Virus record (IMG/VR): IMGVR_UViG_3300044624_000249
Span: 1-20,461 of that record
Direction: 5' to 3' (one strand)
Source of the DNA: a virus
DNA: 20,461 nt
The notes below the pieces were generated by a model, which saw only the letters and a list, made by a program, of their open reading frames with translations, ran no database searches and had not been told where the DNA came from. Positions within the stretch are counted from its first letter, which is position 1, and each line of letters begins with the position of its first letter. Both the position numbers and the translations under genes were made by a program. Of the stretch, positions 2,649 through 16,995 are shown piece by piece.

Positions 2649-5474
2649 TTATCTAATTAGATAAGCCTGAAAGCCGCCACCAGTTACGTCAACTCTAACT
2701 CCTGCCCCATCAACTTTCATCATTACCCCTTTACCTAAAACTAATGATGTGGGCGAACTATAAGTAGTTGCTGAAACTTGGATTGGTTGATTTTCAACTA
2801 ATCTATGAGTTGATAATTGAAATCCAGTATCACACTGTGGCATATTGGGGTTTATGTTAAAATTGTTAAACAGTGCTATTTGTACGTTTGCATTTGCATT
2901 AGCAACCATTTGCAGTGCCAAATCAAATCTTACACTAGTACCTGCAGTAGAGTTTCCAGAATAATTTTCATATTCAATAACCCACCAATCATGATCTCCG
3001 TTATTGATTAGTAGTTGAGCCGCGCCCCATGGATTATATTGTGATGTACTGTCTGCAATATATCCATTAGCAGTAGATGAAGTGTTTTGATAGAATGGAA
3101 AATAATAATTTGCACCGATACTTCCGTTGCCAACTAAGTACTTTGGCGTATCAAAATTTAAATTTCCAATATCTGTACCAAAGGTAGTAATATCTACAGG
3201 AAGTACAATATTTCCACCACCAACTGCAATATCGTACCCATATCCACTTAATGGTTTCATGCCACCACTACCTGCAGCCATATTAACGTAGGCAATAGTA
3301 TTTGATTGAATGTTATTGCCAGTAATAGTATTCGCTTGAATGTTATTACCTTGAATACCACCAGCAGTAATTCCAATACATGCATTGCTTAATGCAACAG
3401 TTGGAACTAAGTTAAGATTAAATTGTGTATTACTTACAACATTTGCAACACGTGTGTTTGCTTGTAACGTACCAGTACCACTTGTAATAGTTACAAAACC
3501 ACCTACTGATAAGTTAGCAATACTATCTGATGTAACTAACGTACCACTACTATTTGCATTACATGCCGCAAACGTTTGATAACTTGTAACATTAGTACCA
3601 GTCCAACTAATGCCAGTGCTTGCATTTGAACGAGCACCAGCATACCTATTACGTGCTGTAACAGACCAGTAATATGTATTGCTTGCTAGATCACCACTGT
3701 TAATAGTTATCAATGTGTTACCAACTAATGGTAAGCCATTTGCACTGTTAACTGTAGTATAAAATTTATGATTTGCAGTATTGCTATCAGTACCAACGTT
3801 AAAATCTAAGTTAGTAACTAGACCTTCATAAGGAACATTACCTACAACTTGCATTTGTGCAATTGTGTTTGCAATTTCTAATGTAACTGCTGGTGCGTTT
3901 GGAGTTCCAATAATATTAGGATCGGTCAATCCAGTGTTATCTGCTGGAATAAAATCAGTAATATCTAAATCGTCATCATAGATAGTTCCATTATACTCAA
4001 ACGCTTGAATTTTTGCACCTAATGAACCATCTGCAAATTTCTCTTCAATTACAGTACTAACTCTGAATAACTTGTCAGTCCATCCATACTCTGCTAATGT
4101 AACTTTAACAACATCGCCTGCTTCTATCTGAATACCTGAATAGTCTAATTGAAAACCAATTACTAAATCTTCACGACTTTGTAATAGTCTGCGAATACCA
4201 ATAAACTTGGCTTGCACAAAGTTGTTAACCAATTGATTTTGTATAGTTAGTTTATTGACTGGTTCATTAGCACTAATCAGTGCAGGATACTCAGCAAACA
4301 AATCTACATATGCATAATTAGTTTGATCTTTGATGTTAGTATCTGGATATTGCATCTCTAATTGATTAAATGTACCATTTAAGTCAACAGGGCTAATATC
4401 AATACCACCAATTAAGTTAGTGCTTGTAACACTATACAAATCATTGATTGTTAATGGGTCTGGTGTTTGATCGTATGCCTTATTGATGACAACTTTCCAC
4501 TTACCACTAATTTCGCTATACTGCAACCAACTATCACATGCGTCTACTAAGTTTTGCAAGTTAGTTAAGCAATCAATACCTGTATCTAATGGTCCATTGA
4601 TACGATAACGAACTTGTGTTGCTGGATTACCATTAACGTCAGTGTAATCAATTAGTCCATCACTATAACTGTCTAATGCAGTTAAACTTGCAGTGTCAAT
4701 CTGTGCTAATGGAATACCACAGCCATAACGTTCATTCTGCATATAGTCAAGCATGACTTCGCCTGGCTTAGTTAAACTGCATGTAATTTTAGCAGTTAAT
4801 GTACCTAATCCAGTAATGCCTGCGTTTTCATCATAGATTAGTTTAACAATCATGAATGCAGTGTTGCTCATAGTTGGTGATTCACCACCTGTTGTATAGA
4901 TAGGACCATTCCAACGTTGATCTGCAGGAATACTTGCATCACTTAAAATTTGACTTGCAGTGAGTCCGCCTGTGTTCGTACCACTACTTGATCCATTAGG
5001 GAACAAGTAAATGAAAATCTTGTTTGCAACTTTTGTATCTACTTGTGGACTGTTTTGTGCGTTGTTAGTTAAACTTGCAACTGCGCCATTTGTACCAAAC
5101 GTTACTAACTTATTGTCATAGTAAATTTGATCAAACGTAATTGTTTCACCATCTGGAACTTCACTTACTGCCTGCACAAACCACATTGTCTTTTGGTCTG
5201 TACTAATTTTTGCATCAGTAATCGAACTACCTAAGAATGCAGTACCATATGATACTGGCAATTTGTTATTTGTTGCTGGCGGCAACTGAATACGTGCGCC
5301 ACTAGTTTCTGCTCCTGCGGCTTTACTGCCTGCACGATTACCTATTAGTTTGCTGACAGCAAACGCCAATACTGCTTGTATTGCAAACTTAGCAACAAGA
5401 CTTGCACCACCTGTAACAATGGCAAGACCAATAACGGCTGCTACGCCAAGAATCTTTTTTACCGTCTTACCCAT
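2649..5474 (-). CDS. Tail tip / central fibre protein, lambda J-like by position (941 residues)
   Basis: This is probably the tail-tip hub and host-contact protein. Residues 8-24 and 27-45 are hydrophobic and glycine/alanine-rich, as at the start of many siphovirus tip proteins (lambda I/J type); they need not be membrane anchors. Residues 60-330 hold conserved-looking tip features (LPVSYG at 72-77, MWFVQAVSEVPDG at 97-109, a GIPL segment near 253, a CDSW segment near 313). Residues about 525-625 look like a fibronectin-III-type domain with a YYWSVTARN strand. Residues 709-728 repeat GNNIQ-x-NTI twice. The C-terminal 200 residues are beta-rich and may contact the receptor. The start has AAGGAG upstream and overlaps the end of the acetyltransferase gene by eight bases (ATGGGTAA). 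The assignment rests on size, order and motifs. Confidence 0.82.
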   Translation of the reverse strand: MGKTVKKILGVAAVIGLAIVTGGASLVAKFAIQAVLAFAVSKLIGNRAGSKAAGAETSGARIQLPPATNNKLPVSYGTAFLGSSITDAKISTDQKTMWFVQAVSEVPDGETITFDQIYYDNKLVTFGTNGAVASLTNNAQNSPQVDTKVANKIFIYLFPNGSSSGTNTGGLTASQILSDASIPADQRWNGPIYTTGGESPTMSNTAFMIVKLIYDENAGITGLGTLTAKITCSLTKPGEVMLDYMQNERYGCGIPLAQIDTASLTALDSYSDGLIDYTDVNGNPATQVRYRINGPLDTGIDCLTNLQNLVDACDSWLQYSEISGKWKVVINKAYDQTPDPLTINDLYSVTSTNLIGGIDISPVDLNGTFNQLEMQYPDTNIKDQTNYAYVDLFAEYPALISANEPVNKLTIQNQLVNNFVQAKFIGIRRLLQSREDLVIGFQLDYSGIQIEAGDVVKVTLAEYGWTDKLFRVSTVIEEKFADGSLGAKIQAFEYNGTIYDDDLDITDFIPADNTGLTDPNIIGTPNAPAVTLEIANTIAQMQVVGNVPYEGLVTNLDFNVGTDSNTANHKFYTTVNSANGLPLVGNTLITINSGDLASNTYYWSVTARNRYAGARSNASTGISWTGTNVTSYQTFAACNANSSGTLVTSDSIANLSVGGFVTITSGTGTLQANTRVANVVSNTQFNLNLVPTVALSNACIGITAGGIQGNNIQANTITGNNIQSNTIAYVNMAAGSGGMKPLSGYGYDIAVGGGNIVLPVDITTFGTDIGNLNFDTPKYLVGNGSIGANYYFPFYQNTSSTANGYIADSTSQYNPWGAAQLLINNGDHDWWVIEYENYSGNSTAGTSVRFDLALQMVANANANVQIALFNNFNINPNMPQCDTGFQLSTHRLVENQPIQVSATTYSSPTSLVLGKGVMMKVDGAGVRVDVTGGGFQAYLIR

Positions 5475-5940
5475 TAATTAACTCCTTAGTATCACATACC
5501 CATATTAATTCATCTTTTGTATAACCAAAACGTGAAAAGTCTAAGTTGTGCATTGTTGTAGGCGCATTGATTGTAAAGAAATTAATCTTTTGTTCAATTT
5601 GCAAGTTCTTGCATTCATCTGTAAATTTCTTAATTAATCTATATGCAATTGTGCCTTTTCTATGTTCTTCTTCAACATACAATAACATTTGATGCATGAA
5701 TAAGATATCTGGGCACCAAACATTTGGTGATTTCATTCCTACCATTATAGCAATTGGTTTATTATCTTTTTCATATACAAGTGCAAGACCTAGACCATGA
5801 ATGATACCATTGTATAGTTTGCTTAGATATTCGTCATCAAGTTCTGCACCTGGAAAATAGCCAACGTCATCATCCATGTGTACCTTATGCACACACTCAA
5901 TAAAATAGTTTACGTCAAATTTATTTGCTTCTCTAATCAT
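5467..5940 (-). CDS. GNAT-family N-acetyltransferase-like protein (157 residues)
   Basis: The fold pattern is that of GNAT enzymes, which move an acetyl group from acetyl-CoA to an amine. The N-terminus MIREANKFDVNYF is a typical beta1-alpha1 start. Residues 52-70 (LALVYEKDNKPIAIMVG) form the beta2-beta3 hairpin. Residues 85-106 (MLLYVEEEHRKGTIAYRLI and onward) are motif A with the CoA loop. The loop is degenerate: where R/Q-x-x-G-x-G/A is usual, H93 and I98 occupy two conserved positions. A strand (INFFTINAP, 119-127) and FSRFGYTKDE (135-144) fit the end of the fold. It sits three bases after a minor tail gene and overlaps the tip gene, with no clear ribosome site, so translation is probably coupled. 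Its target is unknown; it may act on a virion protein. Confidence 0.8.
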   Translation of the reverse strand: MIREANKFDVNYFIECVHKVHMDDDVGYFPGAELDDEYLSKLYNGIIHGLGLALVYEKDNKPIAIMVGMKSPNVWCPDILFMHQMLLYVEEEHRKGTIAYRLIKKFTDECKNLQIEQKINFFTINAPTTMHNLDFSRFGYTKDELIWVCDTKELING

Positions 5941-7346: not shown

Positions 7347-10265
7347 TTATGCTGTTCTATATGGTGTTTCTTTTTTAGCCATTTCAACAGCGCCAAATAA
7401 TGTTCTGCGATTTTCAGCAAATAGTTGTGCAACTGATTTTGCATCTAAAGCACTAATGTTGTTAGTGATGTAAGTGTTGTTTACTGATCCAGATACGTTA
7501 TTACCGCCTTTACCGCCTCCAATTTGATCGTTTGGAATGATTGTGCCTGCTGTTCTAGGAACAAATAGTTCTGGGCCTTTTTCACCAACAATACTTGGTT
7601 TATTAACTGGAGGACTACCACCTTCTGCGAAGAAACCAATTGCAGTTTTAGCAATGTTAAGAAACAATTTTGTAGCAGTTGCTTTTAGTTCAACCATAAG
7701 CAAATCTTTAATGATTGATAGTGCAAAATCTTTAAACTTAAACTTGCCTGTATTAACAAACTCATCCAATGCTCTGCCCATATTTGCAAAAACTGAATCA
7801 AATTTTTCCAAAGCAACTGCCGCAGGATCAATACTACGTTGCAACTCTTCCATTCGTTTTCCAATTGCCGCAGTAACATCATTACGTTCTGAATTTTTCT
7901 TGGCTGCTTCAACTTTCTTTCTCTCTGCCGCTTGTGCTTCAGCACTAGCAATTGCTTCGTTTTTAACAGCATTAGCAGTTTCAACTGCAAGCGCATAACG
8001 TTCTGCGCCTAATTTAAGTTTTTCTTTTTCTAGTTCAAGTAAAGTATTTTGATATGTAACTTCAATCTGACGCAAACTATTTTGTAGTTCAAGTTGAGCA
8101 GTAACTTCATCAAGTTTATCACCGTACAGTCCAACTAATTCTAGTTCGTCTGTAATAGCCTTTAAAGCAGCCTCATTGGTATTGGCAACTTGCTTTAAAT
8201 CTTGCAAACTATTTCTTTTCTCAAGTGCAATATTTTCTTTTTCAATTGCTTCTGCCGCTTTTTCAGCGGAATCAAGTTGTTCAACAGTTGCGTTTTTGAT
8301 TGCAACACGTTGCTCTCTGATTAGTGCAAGCGATGTAGCCCTTGCTTGATCAGTTAATTGATCATTTTCCATAACTTGACGTTGCTTATCATCTAACTGT
8401 TTAAGCGCATCACTCTGTTCTTTAAGAATATCACGTTTTTGTGATGCCAACGTAACATCATGTTCACTCATCTTAAGTGAATCAAATTGAAATTTTAGGT
8501 CGTCAAGTCGTGTTTCTGATTGCTGTGTAAATGCACTAGTAACTTCAAGAATGGCACGTTTTAAATCTCTAAACGCATCTGCTTGTCGTTTTACTCTTTG
8601 TGTTTCTTGTTTAGTAAGATCATTTTTGTGCTTGTCTCTAAGTGCTTTGGCCGCAGCCTCTTCTTCTTGTTTCTTTTTAAGAGCAGCCGCTTTTTCATCG
8701 TCAGAAGCAGCCTTTGCGGCTCTATCTTCGCCAGCAACGCCTGAGATTTCTTTTAAGTAATTATAAAATTCTCCTAATTTATTCATACCTGTGTTAAGAT
8801 AGCCAATTAGTGAAGTTAGCCATCCAGGCGATGATAGTTTTGAAGTAACACTATCCCATGCTTTTCCAACTGAGTCAAATATTGGCGACAATTGGTCTGA
8901 TAGATAACTTCCAAGAAGTTTTAATAGTCCGATTGCAATTCGCACTACTTCGACAAATTTATTAAAAATACCACCAAAATCAATAAGATTTTCTTTGCTT
9001 CCAGTAATTGATTTGTATAGTAAATTAATTACTTCAACAATACCAGTAAAAATGGCAATCCAACCTACAAAGCGCATTCCAATGCTGAATATTGCTTTAA
9101 ATATGTTGCCTAAAGATAATGTAAGTTGAGAAATTCTTGCTATTATTCCACTCAATCCTGTTAAAGTACCAGCAGTTTTTAAAATTTTACCACGTGACGA
9201 ATCAAATACGCCAAAAGCAGTACCAATACCAACTAAACTGTTACTGATACTTTTTAAATCTTTAGTGAACACGACACTAAAGCCACGTGCATTTGCACTC
9301 AAGCCAGTCATTGCTGATGCAAGACCACTCATTGCGGCTACTGCTAATTGAGGACCTTTAACAAGTGTTAAAAAGGCAATTGCTATACTAGAAACAAGTG
9401 AGAATATAGATTTAAGACTAGAAGCAAGACTATTAACATCAGTAGTTAACTTTAATACTGCGTTGGCGGCATCAATAAACACTTTTGCAGGGCCAGGCTC
9501 TTGTGATAATGCATCAAAAGCAATAGCAGCCGCTGTTCTAATGTTAGTGAATCCTTCAGCAATTGTTGGAGTTGTTTTTGCAAACTTCTCTTCAATTGAA
9601 TCAGCAGACTTTAATAGTGCTTCAGTTACAACTTTTGCAGTTAACTTGCCATCTTCTGCAAGTTCACGCATTTTACCAACTGGTACACCTATTGACTTAG
9701 CAAGTTCCATCATTGTTGATGGTGATGCCTCGAACACAGCGTTAAATTCTTCACCGCGCAATACGCCTGAACCCATTGCTTGGCTAAATTGTAGAATAGC
9801 ACTTGCAGATTCTGCCGCAGTTGCACCACCAACCTTCAACGATTTAGTGAAAGATTCTGTTATTTGACCAACTTGATCTTGCGATAGACCCAATTGAGTA
9901 GAAGCAACAGTTAGTTTACTGTACAGATCACCTACTGAACTTAAATCACTGCGTGAGCGACCAGCAATGCCTGCAAGAGTACTAAATTTCTGATTGACTT
10001 CTTCTTGAGTAGCACTAAACGCACTTAATTTATTGCGAACACTTGTTACGGTGTCTGATAATGACGCAAATCCGGCAGAAATAGCACCTACTGCGACAAC
10101 TCCTCCTAGTCCTCTAAGAGAATCACCGATCCCCGACACTTGTTTTTGTAACGCACCAAAGCCTTTGCCGCCCGTACCCATGCGTCCAATCTGTGCTTGC
10201 AATCTATTAAGAGAACTTGTTGCACTACTTGTATCAATGTCTACTGCATATGTTAAACTGGCCAT
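7347..10265 (-). CDS. Tail tape measure protein (972 residues)
   Basis: It sets tail length and passes through the tail tube at DNA ejection. Residues about 78-235 are a clear tape-measure N-terminal domain (TIGR02675 type), including FNAVFEASPSTMMELAKSIG at 174-193 and LREL/DGKLTA features. Residues 286-305 and 390-420 are hydrophobic helices, usual in tape measures and possible membrane-insertion segments. Residues 515-800 are charged heptad-like helix (Lys/Glu/Ala-rich coiled coil). Residues 879-910 carry the C-terminal signature EGGSPPVNKPSIVGEKGPEL, with FVPRTAGTI after it. The start has TAAGGATTATAC upstream. Following the usual rule of about 1.5 angstrom per residue, a tail of very roughly 145 nm is predicted. 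Confidence 0.95.
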   Translation of the reverse strand: MASLTYAVDIDTSSATSSLNRLQAQIGRMGTGGKGFGALQKQVSGIGDSLRGLGGVVAVGAISAGFASLSDTVTSVRNKLSAFSATQEEVNQKFSTLAGIAGRSRSDLSSVGDLYSKLTVASTQLGLSQDQVGQITESFTKSLKVGGATAAESASAILQFSQAMGSGVLRGEEFNAVFEASPSTMMELAKSIGVPVGKMRELAEDGKLTAKVVTEALLKSADSIEEKFAKTTPTIAEGFTNIRTAAAIAFDALSQEPGPAKVFIDAANAVLKLTTDVNSLASSLKSIFSLVSSIAIAFLTLVKGPQLAVAAMSGLASAMTGLSANARGFSVVFTKDLKSISNSLVGIGTAFGVFDSSRGKILKTAGTLTGLSGIIARISQLTLSLGNIFKAIFSIGMRFVGWIAIFTGIVEVINLLYKSITGSKENLIDFGGIFNKFVEVVRIAIGLLKLLGSYLSDQLSPIFDSVGKAWDSVTSKLSSPGWLTSLIGYLNTGMNKLGEFYNYLKEISGVAGEDRAAKAASDDEKAAALKKKQEEEAAAKALRDKHKNDLTKQETQRVKRQADAFRDLKRAILEVTSAFTQQSETRLDDLKFQFDSLKMSEHDVTLASQKRDILKEQSDALKQLDDKQRQVMENDQLTDQARATSLALIREQRVAIKNATVEQLDSAEKAAEAIEKENIALEKRNSLQDLKQVANTNEAALKAITDELELVGLYGDKLDEVTAQLELQNSLRQIEVTYQNTLLELEKEKLKLGAERYALAVETANAVKNEAIASAEAQAAERKKVEAAKKNSERNDVTAAIGKRMEELQRSIDPAAVALEKFDSVFANMGRALDEFVNTGKFKFKDFALSIIKDLLMVELKATATKLFLNIAKTAIGFFAEGGSPPVNKPSIVGEKGPELFVPRTAGTIIPNDQIGGGKGGNNVSGSVNNTYITNNISALDAKSVAQLFAENRRTLFGAVEMAKKETPYRTA

Positions 10266-10274
10266 GTATAATCC

Positions 10275-10571
10275 TTATTTTTTACGCATTATATTATTAA
10301 TGCGTTGTGTAATGTAATCTGTAGTTGGTTTAGACATGCCTTCTGGTGCTTTATTGCTTTCGCCTGCATCTAATTCAGTTGCATAAGGGTAATCTGCTAC
10401 AATTTTATTGCCTTGCAAACGAGTACGTTTACGTGCATTGCCTGATTGAGCAGGAGTAGCGGCTTTAAACACTTCATAGGCTTCTCTAGGCACATTATTT
10501 AATTGCTTTTGTATGCGCTGAAGGCTCGGAGTAATAGTATTGCTGACGAGTCTAAATTTAATATTAGCCAT
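10275..10571 (-). CDS. HK97 gp10-like tail/neck component (98 residues)
   Basis: The start MANIKFRLVSNT (10571) is preferred because AAGGG lies upstream and the ATG overlaps the chaperone stop as ATGGCTAA; an upstream in-frame ATG at 10598 has no ribosome site. The segment TPAQSGNARKRTRLQGNKIV, then ADYPYATELDAG and APEGM, matches the short HK97-gp10-like family, whose usual form has 'TPVkTGnar' and 'YPYA..LdeG.s.qAP.GM'. That family normally joins head to tail or completes the tail, and its gene usually lies before the tail-tube gene. Here it lies between the chaperones and the tape measure. Confidence 0.75.
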   Translation of the reverse strand: MANIKFRLVSNTITPSLQRIQKQLNNVPREAYEVFKAATPAQSGNARKRTRLQGNKIVADYPYATELDAGESNKAPEGMSKPTTDYITQRINNIMRKK

Positions 10572-11120
10572 TATCTTTACCCTTATTAAACATTTCAAGT
10601 AACTGATCAGTAGAATATACTTCTGCTGGTACTTGCCCTTTATTCATAGATTTTTTGTGGTGAAAATTTTCGTAACTCAATGCCGCATCAATAACATACA
10701 AATCAAATGTGTCTGCTCTTTTTAAGATTTCGCTTGGTAATAGACCATATCTTTTACCAAGCCCATCGATTTGCATTATTGAGAGCATTTCTCTAGAGTC
10801 TACATTTATTTCACCACCTGTTACTTTCCCAACTGTTCTGTAATCTTAGCAATAACTTTCATCAAAATGCCTGTTGGCAAAGTGCTTTCTTTAGTAAGAA
10901 TTTGTTTGCCTTCTTCGTCAAGAATTAATGTTCTAACGATTTCTACTAATGCACCAACGTCATTTTTTTCACTCAAATTTGCAAGACGAGTGAATACGTC
11001 CATTGGTTGGCGATCCCAAGTATAAAAGGTTAGTGCTTCCTTATATTCCTTGATGACTTCCTTATCGTCAATGGATACTTCGATTAATTTTGGTGCTGAT
11101 GCGAGTTGTGATAATTTCAT
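10564..11120 (-). CDS. Tail assembly chaperone, frameshifted long form (lambda GT-like, 185 residues)
   Basis: This is the fusion made when ribosomes slip back one base at GGGAAAG (10830 to 10824). Ninety-nine frame-0 codons (11120..10824) are joined to 86 codons of the -1 frame (10824..10564). The -1 frame is open from the slip site: it continues VTGGEINVDSRE into MLSIMQIDGLG, so the downstream ORF that could start at ATG 10788 has no need of its own start, and that ATG has no convincing ribosome site. The T-like part contains LPSEILKRADTFDLYVIDAA, as expected for the extension that recruits tail-tube subunits to the tape measure in lambda. The stop overlaps the next gene's ATG. Frameshifting itself is inferred from sequence. 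Confidence 0.85.
10821..11120 (-). CDS. Tail assembly chaperone, short form (lambda G-like, 99 residues)
   Basis: This is the frame-0 product ending at TAA 10823..10821, directly after the slippery heptamer. It is a small acidic-basic helical protein with FYTWDRQPMDVFTRLANLS at residues 32-50, typical of tail chaperones placed between the tail-tube gene and the tape measure. It would coat the tape measure before tube polymerisation and be absent from the mature virion. A ribosome site (AAAGGAAAAAC) precedes the ATG, and a late promoter-like motif lies 25 bases upstream, so this gene probably starts a transcription unit covering the tail tip genes. Confidence 0.85.
   Translation of the reverse strand: MKLSQLASAPKLIEVSIDDKEVIKEYKEALTFYTWDRQPMDVFTRLANLSEKNDVGALVEIVRTLILDEEGKQILTKESTLPTGILMKVIAKITEQLGK
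10824..10830 (-). other. -1 programmed frameshift site, G_GGA_AAG
   Basis: Codons in the zero frame read TTG GGA AAG TAA. The heptamer GGGAAAG fits X_XXY_YYZ and is identical to the lambda G/GT slip site. After slippage the tRNAs re-pair on GGG AAA and decoding continues GTA ACA GGT. The stop codon is immediately adjacent to the heptamer. Downstream there is only a weak short hairpin (AGAG with CTCT around 10781..10798), so any stimulatory structure is not obvious. Confidence 0.88.
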
Positions 11121-11407: not shown

Positions 11408-11893
11408 TTAAGGGTTTTTGCCAACAGTCATATCACCATCGACAGCAAGTGTCATTGGTGATACCCAAACAGGCGCTTCTGGACTAACAGTTGGTGCAAG
11501 TGATGAGATATAACCCACGCCAGTGTAGTAGTATGCGTTTGCTGTTGAGGCATTGCCATTCATTACAATCTTGAATGAAACAGGAACTTTATTAATTGAA
11601 AGTCCTGAAATACCTAGCACTGCGGCATTACCTGATGAAGAACCAGGTGTTGTGCCAAAGTATCCTGTTGGATCGATAACGATATTTGTAGAAATTTCGT
11701 TATCTGCAGGTGTTGTGATTTTGTTTGTGTCGATAGAACAGAAGTCTGTCCATGCAAAGATACCAGTTGAATTGGTAATCGTAACATCTTGCAAACAAGT
11801 AACTGATAACGCGGCGTTAGCAACGTTAGAAGTGTCGGTACTAACCAATAGTGTTGGTTGAGTACCTGTTGTATTTACGGTAAGTCTTGCCAT
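11408..11893 (-). CDS. Major tail (tube) protein, probable (161 residues)
   Basis: It would form the stacked hexameric rings of the tail tube. The evidence is its place just upstream of the chaperones and tape measure, its own strong ribosome site (AAGGAGAAATAAA) and a strong terminator right after it, as expected for an abundant protein. The sequence is beta-rich with few charged residues: MARLTVNTTGTQPTLLVST, then a central NEISTNIVIDPTGYF and ending MTLAVDGDMTVGKNP. The length is in the small range for tube proteins. No sheath-like gene is beside it, which supports a non-contractile tail. No diagnostic motif is visible, so the call is mainly contextual. Confidence 0.75.
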   Translation of the reverse strand: MARLTVNTTGTQPTLLVSTDTSNVANAALSVTCLQDVTITNSTGIFAWTDFCSIDTNKITTPADNEISTNIVIDPTGYFGTTPGSSSGNAAVLGISGLSINKVPVSFKIVMNGNASTANAYYYTGVGYISSLAPTVSPEAPVWVSPMTLAVDGDMTVGKNP

Positions 11894-16502: not shown

Positions 16503-16576
16503 AAAATTATTTTCTCTCGCATTAATCTGGCAAATGCAGGTAATTCATCGTTTAGATAGATATTGTATTTATGCAT
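16499..16576 (-). CDS. Possible 25-codon mini-ORF linking the HNH and portal genes
   Basis: A tiny open frame fills the whole gap: its ATG overlaps the HNH stop as TGATG, and its TGA overlaps the portal ATG as ATGA. The peptide would read MHKYNIYLNDELPAFARLMR and five more residues, with a plausible amphipathic helix. The end-to-end junctions look like translational coupling, but no good ribosome site precedes it and it contains the late promoter-like motif, so the frame could be chance, or the remnant of a gene split when the HNH element entered. Confidence 0.3.
   Translation of the reverse strand: MHKYNIYLNDELPAFARLMREKIIL
16564..16572 (-). promoter_or_regulatory. T4-like late promoter motif, ATAAATACA (copy 5)
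   Basis: The coding strand reads GATGCATAAATACAATATC, seven bases or fewer after the HNH stop and 61 bases before the portal start. It would let the portal be transcribed late, without the terminase and HNH genes. Confidence 0.5.
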
Positions 16577-16995
16577 CATATCTTATGTTTACAGTTATCA
16601 TTATGCCAACGTGCAATCATTGCAGGACTTGTTTTCATACTGCAATGATTGCAACTTTTAGTTTCTTGATTACCAAAATGATTGCTTCTACCCTTACGAA
16701 TCATCTCTTGTGTATTCTCTCTGTGTGTACCTAAACGTAAATGATCAGGATTAACACACTTAGGGTTATCACAACTATGCAATACGCACATGCCTGCAGG
16801 AATGATTCCTTTGTGTTCTTCGTAACTTACACGATGCGTTGTACGCATTCCATGTTCTGCACGAATCATACCATAACCAACGTTGTTAGTTCCACCCTGC
16901 CATTCCCAACAGTTAGTAACATCGTTAATTTTAATCTTGTTTAGTAATCTTTGTAATATTGGCGTACTAGTGCCAATTGGTCTTCCTAATTTCAT
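16576..16995 (-). CDS. HNH endonuclease, probably a free-standing homing element (139 residues)
   Basis: The HNH_3-type core is clear: HRVSYEEHKG with H54, then VLHSCDNPKCVNPDHLRLGT with H73, C75, C80, N82 and H85, followed by a Thr/Arg/Lys-rich helix (ENTQEMIRKGR). The N-terminus has CWEWQGG-type features usual in this family. A second likely zinc site is at the C-terminus (C115, C118, H131, C135, in CNHC then RWHNDNC). Such genes cut DNA in phage-lacking relatives and spread into the same site. It lies between large terminase and portal with its own ribosome site (AAAGGAG) and 20 bases of gap. HNH proteins near terminases can also assist packaging; with terminase nuclease residues present here, mobility seems the simpler reading. 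Confidence 0.92.
   Translation of the reverse strand: MKLGRPIGTSTPILQRLLNKIKINDVTNCWEWQGGTNNVGYGMIRAEHGMRTTHRVSYEEHKGIIPAGMCVLHSCDNPKCVNPDHLRLGTHRENTQEMIRKGRSNHFGNQETKSCNHCSMKTSPAMIARWHNDNCKHKI

Follow-up and report, generated by a model that had tools for sequence, protein, structure and literature searches.

The window, by which we mean the whole stretch of DNA analysed here, is a 20,461-bp uncultured virus record whose late operon is encoded on the minus strand. It very probably encodes a tail assembly chaperone of the G/GT type, belonging to an uncultured phage of the siphovirus type, and a -1 slip in this gene would compete with termination at a stop codon lying directly against the slip site. 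Comparison with relatives indicates that the stop directly after the shift site is under selection, and that it is always UAA or UAG.

How would such a module operate? Most ribosomes would decode GGA-AAG and finish at the UAA next to it, yielding abundant G, while a minority would slip one base back on G_GGA_AAG (to GGG-AAA), resume at GUA and produce the GT fusion. No free T would be intended. By analogy with lambda, G would coat the tape measure, while tail-tube subunits would be brought in by the T portion of the scarce GT fusions. The adjacent stop would end G exactly at the slip; on entering the A site, it might also give the ribosome one further moment of slippage in competition with the release factor.

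Slip site, gene context and protein identity

The zero-frame gene, encoding G, is a 99-codon open reading frame at 11120-10821 on the minus strand, which ends TTG-GGA-AAG-TAA and whose protein finishes in TEQLGK. The heptamer G_GGA_AAG (GGGAAAG) lies in phase at 10830-10824, and the TAA at 10823-10821 abuts it. Read from 10830, the -1 frame (GKVTGGEINV...GKDNG) supplies a T-like extension of 88 codons including GK, or 86 codons after GK, up to its stop at 10566-10564. A preliminary description of the sequence had recognised the lambda G/GT heptamer, the open -1 frame of 86 codons past the slip and the TAA at the very next base, and in all of this it was accurate. The presence of GGGAAAG is uninformative in itself, because about one copy is expected per window by chance (1 observed versus 1.19 expected). 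The -1 and zero frames overlap by 22 nt before the zero-frame stop (measured on L034, whose slip context is identical to that of the window), and by our own arithmetic the chance of this heptamer falling in phase within that overlap, which offers about five in-phase positions, is roughly 1.5e-4. It is the phase of the heptamer, its placement in the 22-nt overlap and its conservation that carry the weight, and conservation is the real proof.

Downstream of the chaperone, with one gene between, lies the gene for a tape measure protein of 972 aa (7347-10265, minus strand; Pfam TMP_3 3.3e-52 and Tape_meas_lam_C 1e-7, PHROG tape measure). The intervening gene (98 aa, 10275-10571, minus strand), whose start overlaps the end of the -1 frame, is neck/tail-completion-like by its position and has a weak PHROG match (phrog_17193, E 0.19). 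Upstream, a 161-aa open reading frame (11408-11893, minus strand), for which Pfam and PHROG gave no match, is the probable major tail protein, placed by position only. Rfam and tRNA searches of the window returned no hits. Within the tail gene cluster there is also a GNAT-type acetyltransferase-like reading frame (5467-5940, minus strand; Pfam Acetyltransf_1 3.6e-4), and an HNH endonuclease gene (16576-16995, minus strand; Pfam HNH_3 6e-14) adjoins the large terminase gene. Around the start of this HNH gene, about 30 nt share 90% identity with the leader and beginning of the gene for the G chaperone.

Neither G nor T of the window has a convincing Pfam or PHROG match, and neither matches anything in 50,697 phage records (a collection of named phages that includes lambda). 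The T part of one related locus, L279, gave two weak hits to one Edwardsiella phage at E 0.2, which we did not believe. Ten of 13 T-domain relatives match phrog_6541, a family of unknown function (best E 3.5e-6). Structural modelling gives G a tail-chaperone-like fold: the AF2 model (pLDDT 82.8) matches a BFVD entry annotated as tail assembly chaperone (TM 0.83, E 3.8e-8). Among solved structures its best match is the HK97 chaperone 2ob9, at 8 per cent identity and with a middling VIA Z of 6.6 over 90 residues (rmsd 4.0); by Foldseek the same comparison is weak (E 0.39). The T model (pLDDT 72) matches free-standing uncharacterized phage proteins of 72 and 99 aa, the 72-aa protein best, which probably represent this extension annotated on its own.

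Conservation of the slip site and selection on the stop

A protein search with G alone gave 141 viral-contig relatives, and in the best 80 of them LGK is followed directly by TAA without exception (80/80); the -1 frame is open for 78 to 94 codons in these best 80 of 141, save in L047, where the contig ends. With the wider alignment-led scans (best 80 of 330, 367 and 488 relatives), the loci total 353 including the window, all on viral contigs apart from one on a bacterial MAG contig. This last locus (L274, contig CAISLL010000046.1) carries the same slip-stop cassette in a lake betaproteobacterial MAG, possibly as a clue to the host, possibly as a phage contig binned by mistake. Because many contigs were retrieved more than once, counts were collapsed to distinct contexts. 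A script placed the site in 349 of the 353 loci, giving 146 distinct 180-nt contexts, with L001 and L002 (the window itself) left out before the count. Unplaced by the script were L030, L169, L307 and L314, of which the last two nonetheless have adjacent stops.

Among the matches listed, the heptamer is GGGAAAG or GGGAAAA in 142 of the 146 distinct contexts and the stop adjoins the slip site in 144. The prevailing arrangement is GGGAAAG-TAA (99 contexts), followed by GGGAAAA-TAA (29), GGGAAAG-TAG (10) and GGGAAAA-TAG (2), with GGGGAAG-TAA (2), GGGGGAA-TAA (1) and GGGAAAC-TAA (1) as minor forms; in the other two contexts, from the distant relatives L033/L275 and L276, the stop comes one codon later (GGGAAAG TTA TAA). 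Three of the 146 have no X_XXY_YYZ heptamer, namely those with GGGGAAG (L094, L252) and GGGGGAA (L350). G, T and the adjacent TAA all persist in these loci despite the altered heptamer, which could be a real weak site or a sequencing error. Conservation of the heptamer in relatives had been proposed in the preliminary description as a check, and it speaks for the reading given there: together with the chaperone-like fold and the tape measure downstream, it supports a lambda-type -1 programmed frameshift in a tail assembly chaperone. The same description supposed that in many relatives the stop lies further on, which fails among the window's own relatives.

For codon-level comparison the contexts were reduced to 89 clusters (<85 per cent identity), with the two contexts having the stop one codon on and those with <90 nt on one side left out. 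Over the 11 codons after the slip, the third codon position of the -1 frame is the most variable and no cluster has a stop (0/89), whereas the other two frames are interrupted in 33/89 and 82/89 clusters. Judged by codon-position entropy in the 89 clusters, conserved -1 coding begins right at the slip, upstream of any ATG. This pattern bears on the possibility that ribosomes stop at the TAA and restart in the -1 frame, giving a separate T. Such reinitiation would suit an overlap confined to the surroundings of the slip site, the ATG present at 10788, the apparent tendency of automatic annotation to split the gene, and the free-standing 72-aa 'uncharacterized protein' that is T's best structural relative. 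It would, however, require no conservation of the heptamer, which is kept nearly throughout the listed contexts, nor of -1 codons lying upstream of any start. The ATG at 10788, the first of the -1 frame, is codon 12 after the slip and pairs with the anti-Shine-Dalgarno sequence at -0.7 kcal/mol in the window. In the clusters the first -1 ATG is not at a fixed place (codon 12 in 42, 13 in 16 and 14 in 14 of 89), and its mean pairing of -3.8 (n 84) is weak against -6.98 kcal/mol at the G start (n 87). Since coding precedes the ATG, the ATG position varies and the pairing is weak, separate initiation at 10788 is unlikely, and we consider reinitiation a highly improbable source of T. The earlier warning that standard annotation would make two genes with a false start at 10788 was sound; gene callers will split such chaperones and mis-start the second half.

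Still less probable is a fusion made by readthrough of the UAA or by transcriptional slippage. Readthrough would stay in the zero frame, which past the UAA is the one that meets a stop within 11 codons in 33 of the 89 clusters, while it is the -1 frame that is conserved. The short GGGAAA run could in principle make RNA polymerase stutter, but for transcriptional slippage a run of three G followed by three A is short, and the frame-phased X_XXY_YYZ is the pattern that tandem tRNA slippage needs.

Is the stop merely carried along by the -1 coding sequence, or is it kept for its own sake? The GTA or ATA codon of T contributes its final two bases to the beginning of the stop, and its third base would be free if only T mattered. 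In all 89 clusters, nevertheless, the codon ends in A (GTA 68, ATA 20, CTA 1), while at other nearby codons of the same clusters valine is GTA in 109/298 and isoleucine is ATA in 112/487. On a maximum-likelihood tree of the 89 clusters, built without the slip region, the stop changed 4 times, always between TAA and TAG and never to TGA; on the same tree the codons of an invariant Pro changed 32 times, those of an invariant Tyr 13 times and those of an Asp 18 times. The constant A and the rarity of stop changes relative to synonymous codons argue that the stop is kept for its own sake. Slip site and adjacent stop appear frozen together while their surroundings drift, across a deep natural series, which argues strongly that a bacterial -1 frameshift signal can include, as a functional component, the codon following its slip site.

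Known systems and the possible role of the adjacent stop

Lambda (checked on NC_001416) has the same heptamer, the same frame step and the same order of chaperone and then tape-measure gene. It differs in that its TGA comes 15 nt after the heptamer, whereas the stop of the window is adjacent, and in that the window has the 98-aa gene between GT and the tape measure. Among 19 named phage regions, 14 have an in-phase heptamer with a long -1 reading frame, at stop distances of 0 nt in seven, 3 nt in three, 15 nt in lambda and 39 nt in three. The seven with the stop directly after the heptamer are RcMotherGoose, AH03, Axy19, ehaak_LB5, 33Fb.4, Mcat12 and CSP1C. Their heptamers, unlike that of the window, end in C (GGGAAAC, AAAAAAC, TTTTTTC), and some, such as Axy19, use UGA. 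RcMotherGoose and AH03 were deposited with a joined chaperone coding sequence and in both, as here, a single gene separates the chaperone from the tape measure. In a second chaperone family from viral contigs (L374-L458; best 80 of 132 relatives), for which a first single-sequence query had given no matches, the stop is adjacent in 45/73 distinct contexts, L430 and L458 having been left out for want of a stop. All three stop codons are used there, UGA in 23/45 adjacent contexts, and the non-adjacent stops lie mostly within 51 nt, with recurrent spacings of 3, 12 and 39 nt. Outside the lineage, therefore, the notion of a stop lying further on holds in part: the stop is not adjacent in 7/14 named phages and 28/73 second-family contexts, and adjacent in the rest.

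From these counts the adjacent stop is a common design rather than a very unusual one. Our literature search, so far as texts were accessible, turned up no study of adjacent stops in tail chaperones, although some may already be listed in the 2004 survey by Xu, Hendrix and Duda of frameshifts in chaperone genes. One published set has mean slip-to-stop distances of 26 and 36 nt (PMC10885494), and since this set, our lineage, the named phages and the second family all differ, spacing varies widely between families. Stops as the codon after the slippery sequence are also reported from Rous sarcoma virus and barley yellow dwarf virus (PMC4373837), and directly after the shift site of some dnaX genes (PMC5009743), all of them genes unrelated to chaperones.

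What might the stop do to the shift? Tandem slippage on G_GGA_AAG is standard and the heptamer is reported to be highly shift-prone in E. coli (PMC5009743); for lambda, the same source gives the 30:1 ratio and the binding roles of G and GT, and frameshifting of 6 and 7 per cent is recorded for two phage chaperone genes (PMC3711429). When HIV-1 constructs carried a stop as the next codon, frameshifting fell by about 70 per cent and extra eRF1 reduced it further; the authors cite earlier work in which extra RF2 abolished a shift in bacteria (PMC4373837). Rous sarcoma virus, though, showed no change when its natural adjacent stop was mutated (PMC4373837), and pea enation mosaic virus required a stop located one codon downstream (PMC5009743). 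The preliminary description had suggested that the adjacent stop could increase the shift rate or set it by release-factor level; the published work, all on other sites, speaks mostly for competition in which such a stop would lower or cap the shift, not raise it.

The kinetic part of this account has a serious rival, to which we give somewhat less than an even chance: the frameshift may be real and the stop no regulator, if G must simply end cleanly at the slip because a tail would be harmful or useless. The LGK at the end of G, invariant in both alignments, fits such a requirement, and so does the second family, where adjacency is common and the other stops mostly follow at short range. A clean end does not by itself explain the choice of stop codon. 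Among the matches listed, UGA occurs in none of the 144 adjacent contexts, while TGA closes 36/332 long reading frames in the same loci.

The absence of UGA is the freshest lead of this analysis. Heptamers of the lineage end in G or A (one in C), so that a UGA would produce an overlapping GUG or AUG in the -1 frame; a GTGA or ATGA overlap is a classic restart motif, and here it would stand close to an internal Shine-Dalgarno-like element. In the valine clusters where GTG would serve T and still make a stop, GTA is nevertheless found in 63/63. In the second family (best 80 of 132 relatives), UGA after a C-ending heptamer creates CUG, and it stands in 23/42 adjacent contexts with such heptamers; two T-ending heptamers and the single G-ending one have TAA. 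The stop might conceivably be selected also to forbid free T, in a slip-stop module tuned so that T exists only as GT, although we hold this to be rather doubtful; a tolerance of RF1-read stops only would fit the same pattern. Because background TGA differs (36/332 in the lineage loci versus 173/352 in the second family), base composition and hosts confound any comparison of the two families, and the UGA counts are non-independent through phylogeny, relatedness and base composition being possible causes of the pattern. The paired natural families make it testable whether a stop in the A site competes with late slippage and why UGA is excluded.

RNA signals around the slip

Upstream of the heptamer, anti-Shine-Dalgarno pairing peaks for 9-mers ending 6 to 11 nt before it, and the mean best pairing of the lineage is -4.71, compared with -3.48 (sd 0.20) in synonymous controls, of which 0/60 were as low. 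This internal Shine-Dalgarno-like signal holds for the lineage and is weak in the window, where the corresponding site (AAGATTACA, 10839-10847, minus strand) has a pairing energy of about -2.6.

Downstream, the mean fold z over +6 to +100 is -2.67 in the 89 clusters. We divided these into group A (56 sequences, window included) and group B (33, window not included), whose mean folding energies are both lower than those of codon-permuted controls (-25.5 versus -18.8, sd 0.42, and -28.1 versus -23.3, sd 0.59, respectively). In group A, two hairpins exceed their protein-preserving controls: HP1 (columns 16-23 with 43-50), paired in 71.4 versus 59.4 per cent (0/1000), and HP2 (columns 70-77 with 91-98), the top helix of an all-pairs scan, paired in 80.8 per cent versus a synonymous-permutation mean of 65.6 (0/1000). 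Changes on both sides of a pair occur at 72:96 (U-A/A-U/G-C) and 18:48 (C-G/U-A), but the number of pairs so changed is not unusual in shuffles (272/500). In group B, stem S1 (columns 13-19 with 69-75) is paired in 88.3 versus 72.9 per cent (0/1000), and its first pair varies between G-C, G-U, A-U and U-A. In such loci as L279, L304 and L349 it forms seven pairs, starting about 5 nt after the heptamer with its partner about 55 nt downstream.

Under a milder column-wise synonymous control HP1 keeps z 3.7 and HP2 z 4.1 (0/1000 each), and S1 z 2.0 (53/1000). Because HP1 and S1 had initially been chosen by eye from the very sequences used here, their significance is inflated to an unknown degree. 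RNAalifold predicted only S1 in group B and no pair in group A, and we temper the claims for the group A hairpins accordingly. As a group B pseudoknot we tried a crossing stem, S2, which is 82.3 per cent paired, but 83/1000 controls were as high, as were 134/1000 for the inner hairpin. No pseudoknot is claimed, because neither element exceeds the protein-preserving controls; Rous sarcoma virus, in contrast, also uses one (PMC4373837, PMC5009743). In published work, hairpins have been predicted in 3/5 phage clusters, with one judged relevant (PMC4066793).

In the window itself HP1 is not properly formed (5/8 pairs) and the near-slip fold z is +0.94, which leaves HP2 as the only strong structure, about 62 nt from the slip. 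This is further than usual stimulators lie, and a stimulatory role for HP2 in frameshifting would be a guess. The hairpin is perfect there, pairing 8/8, with its 5' arm GCTTGGTAA at 10762-10754 and its 3' arm TTACCAAGC at 10740-10732 on the minus strand.
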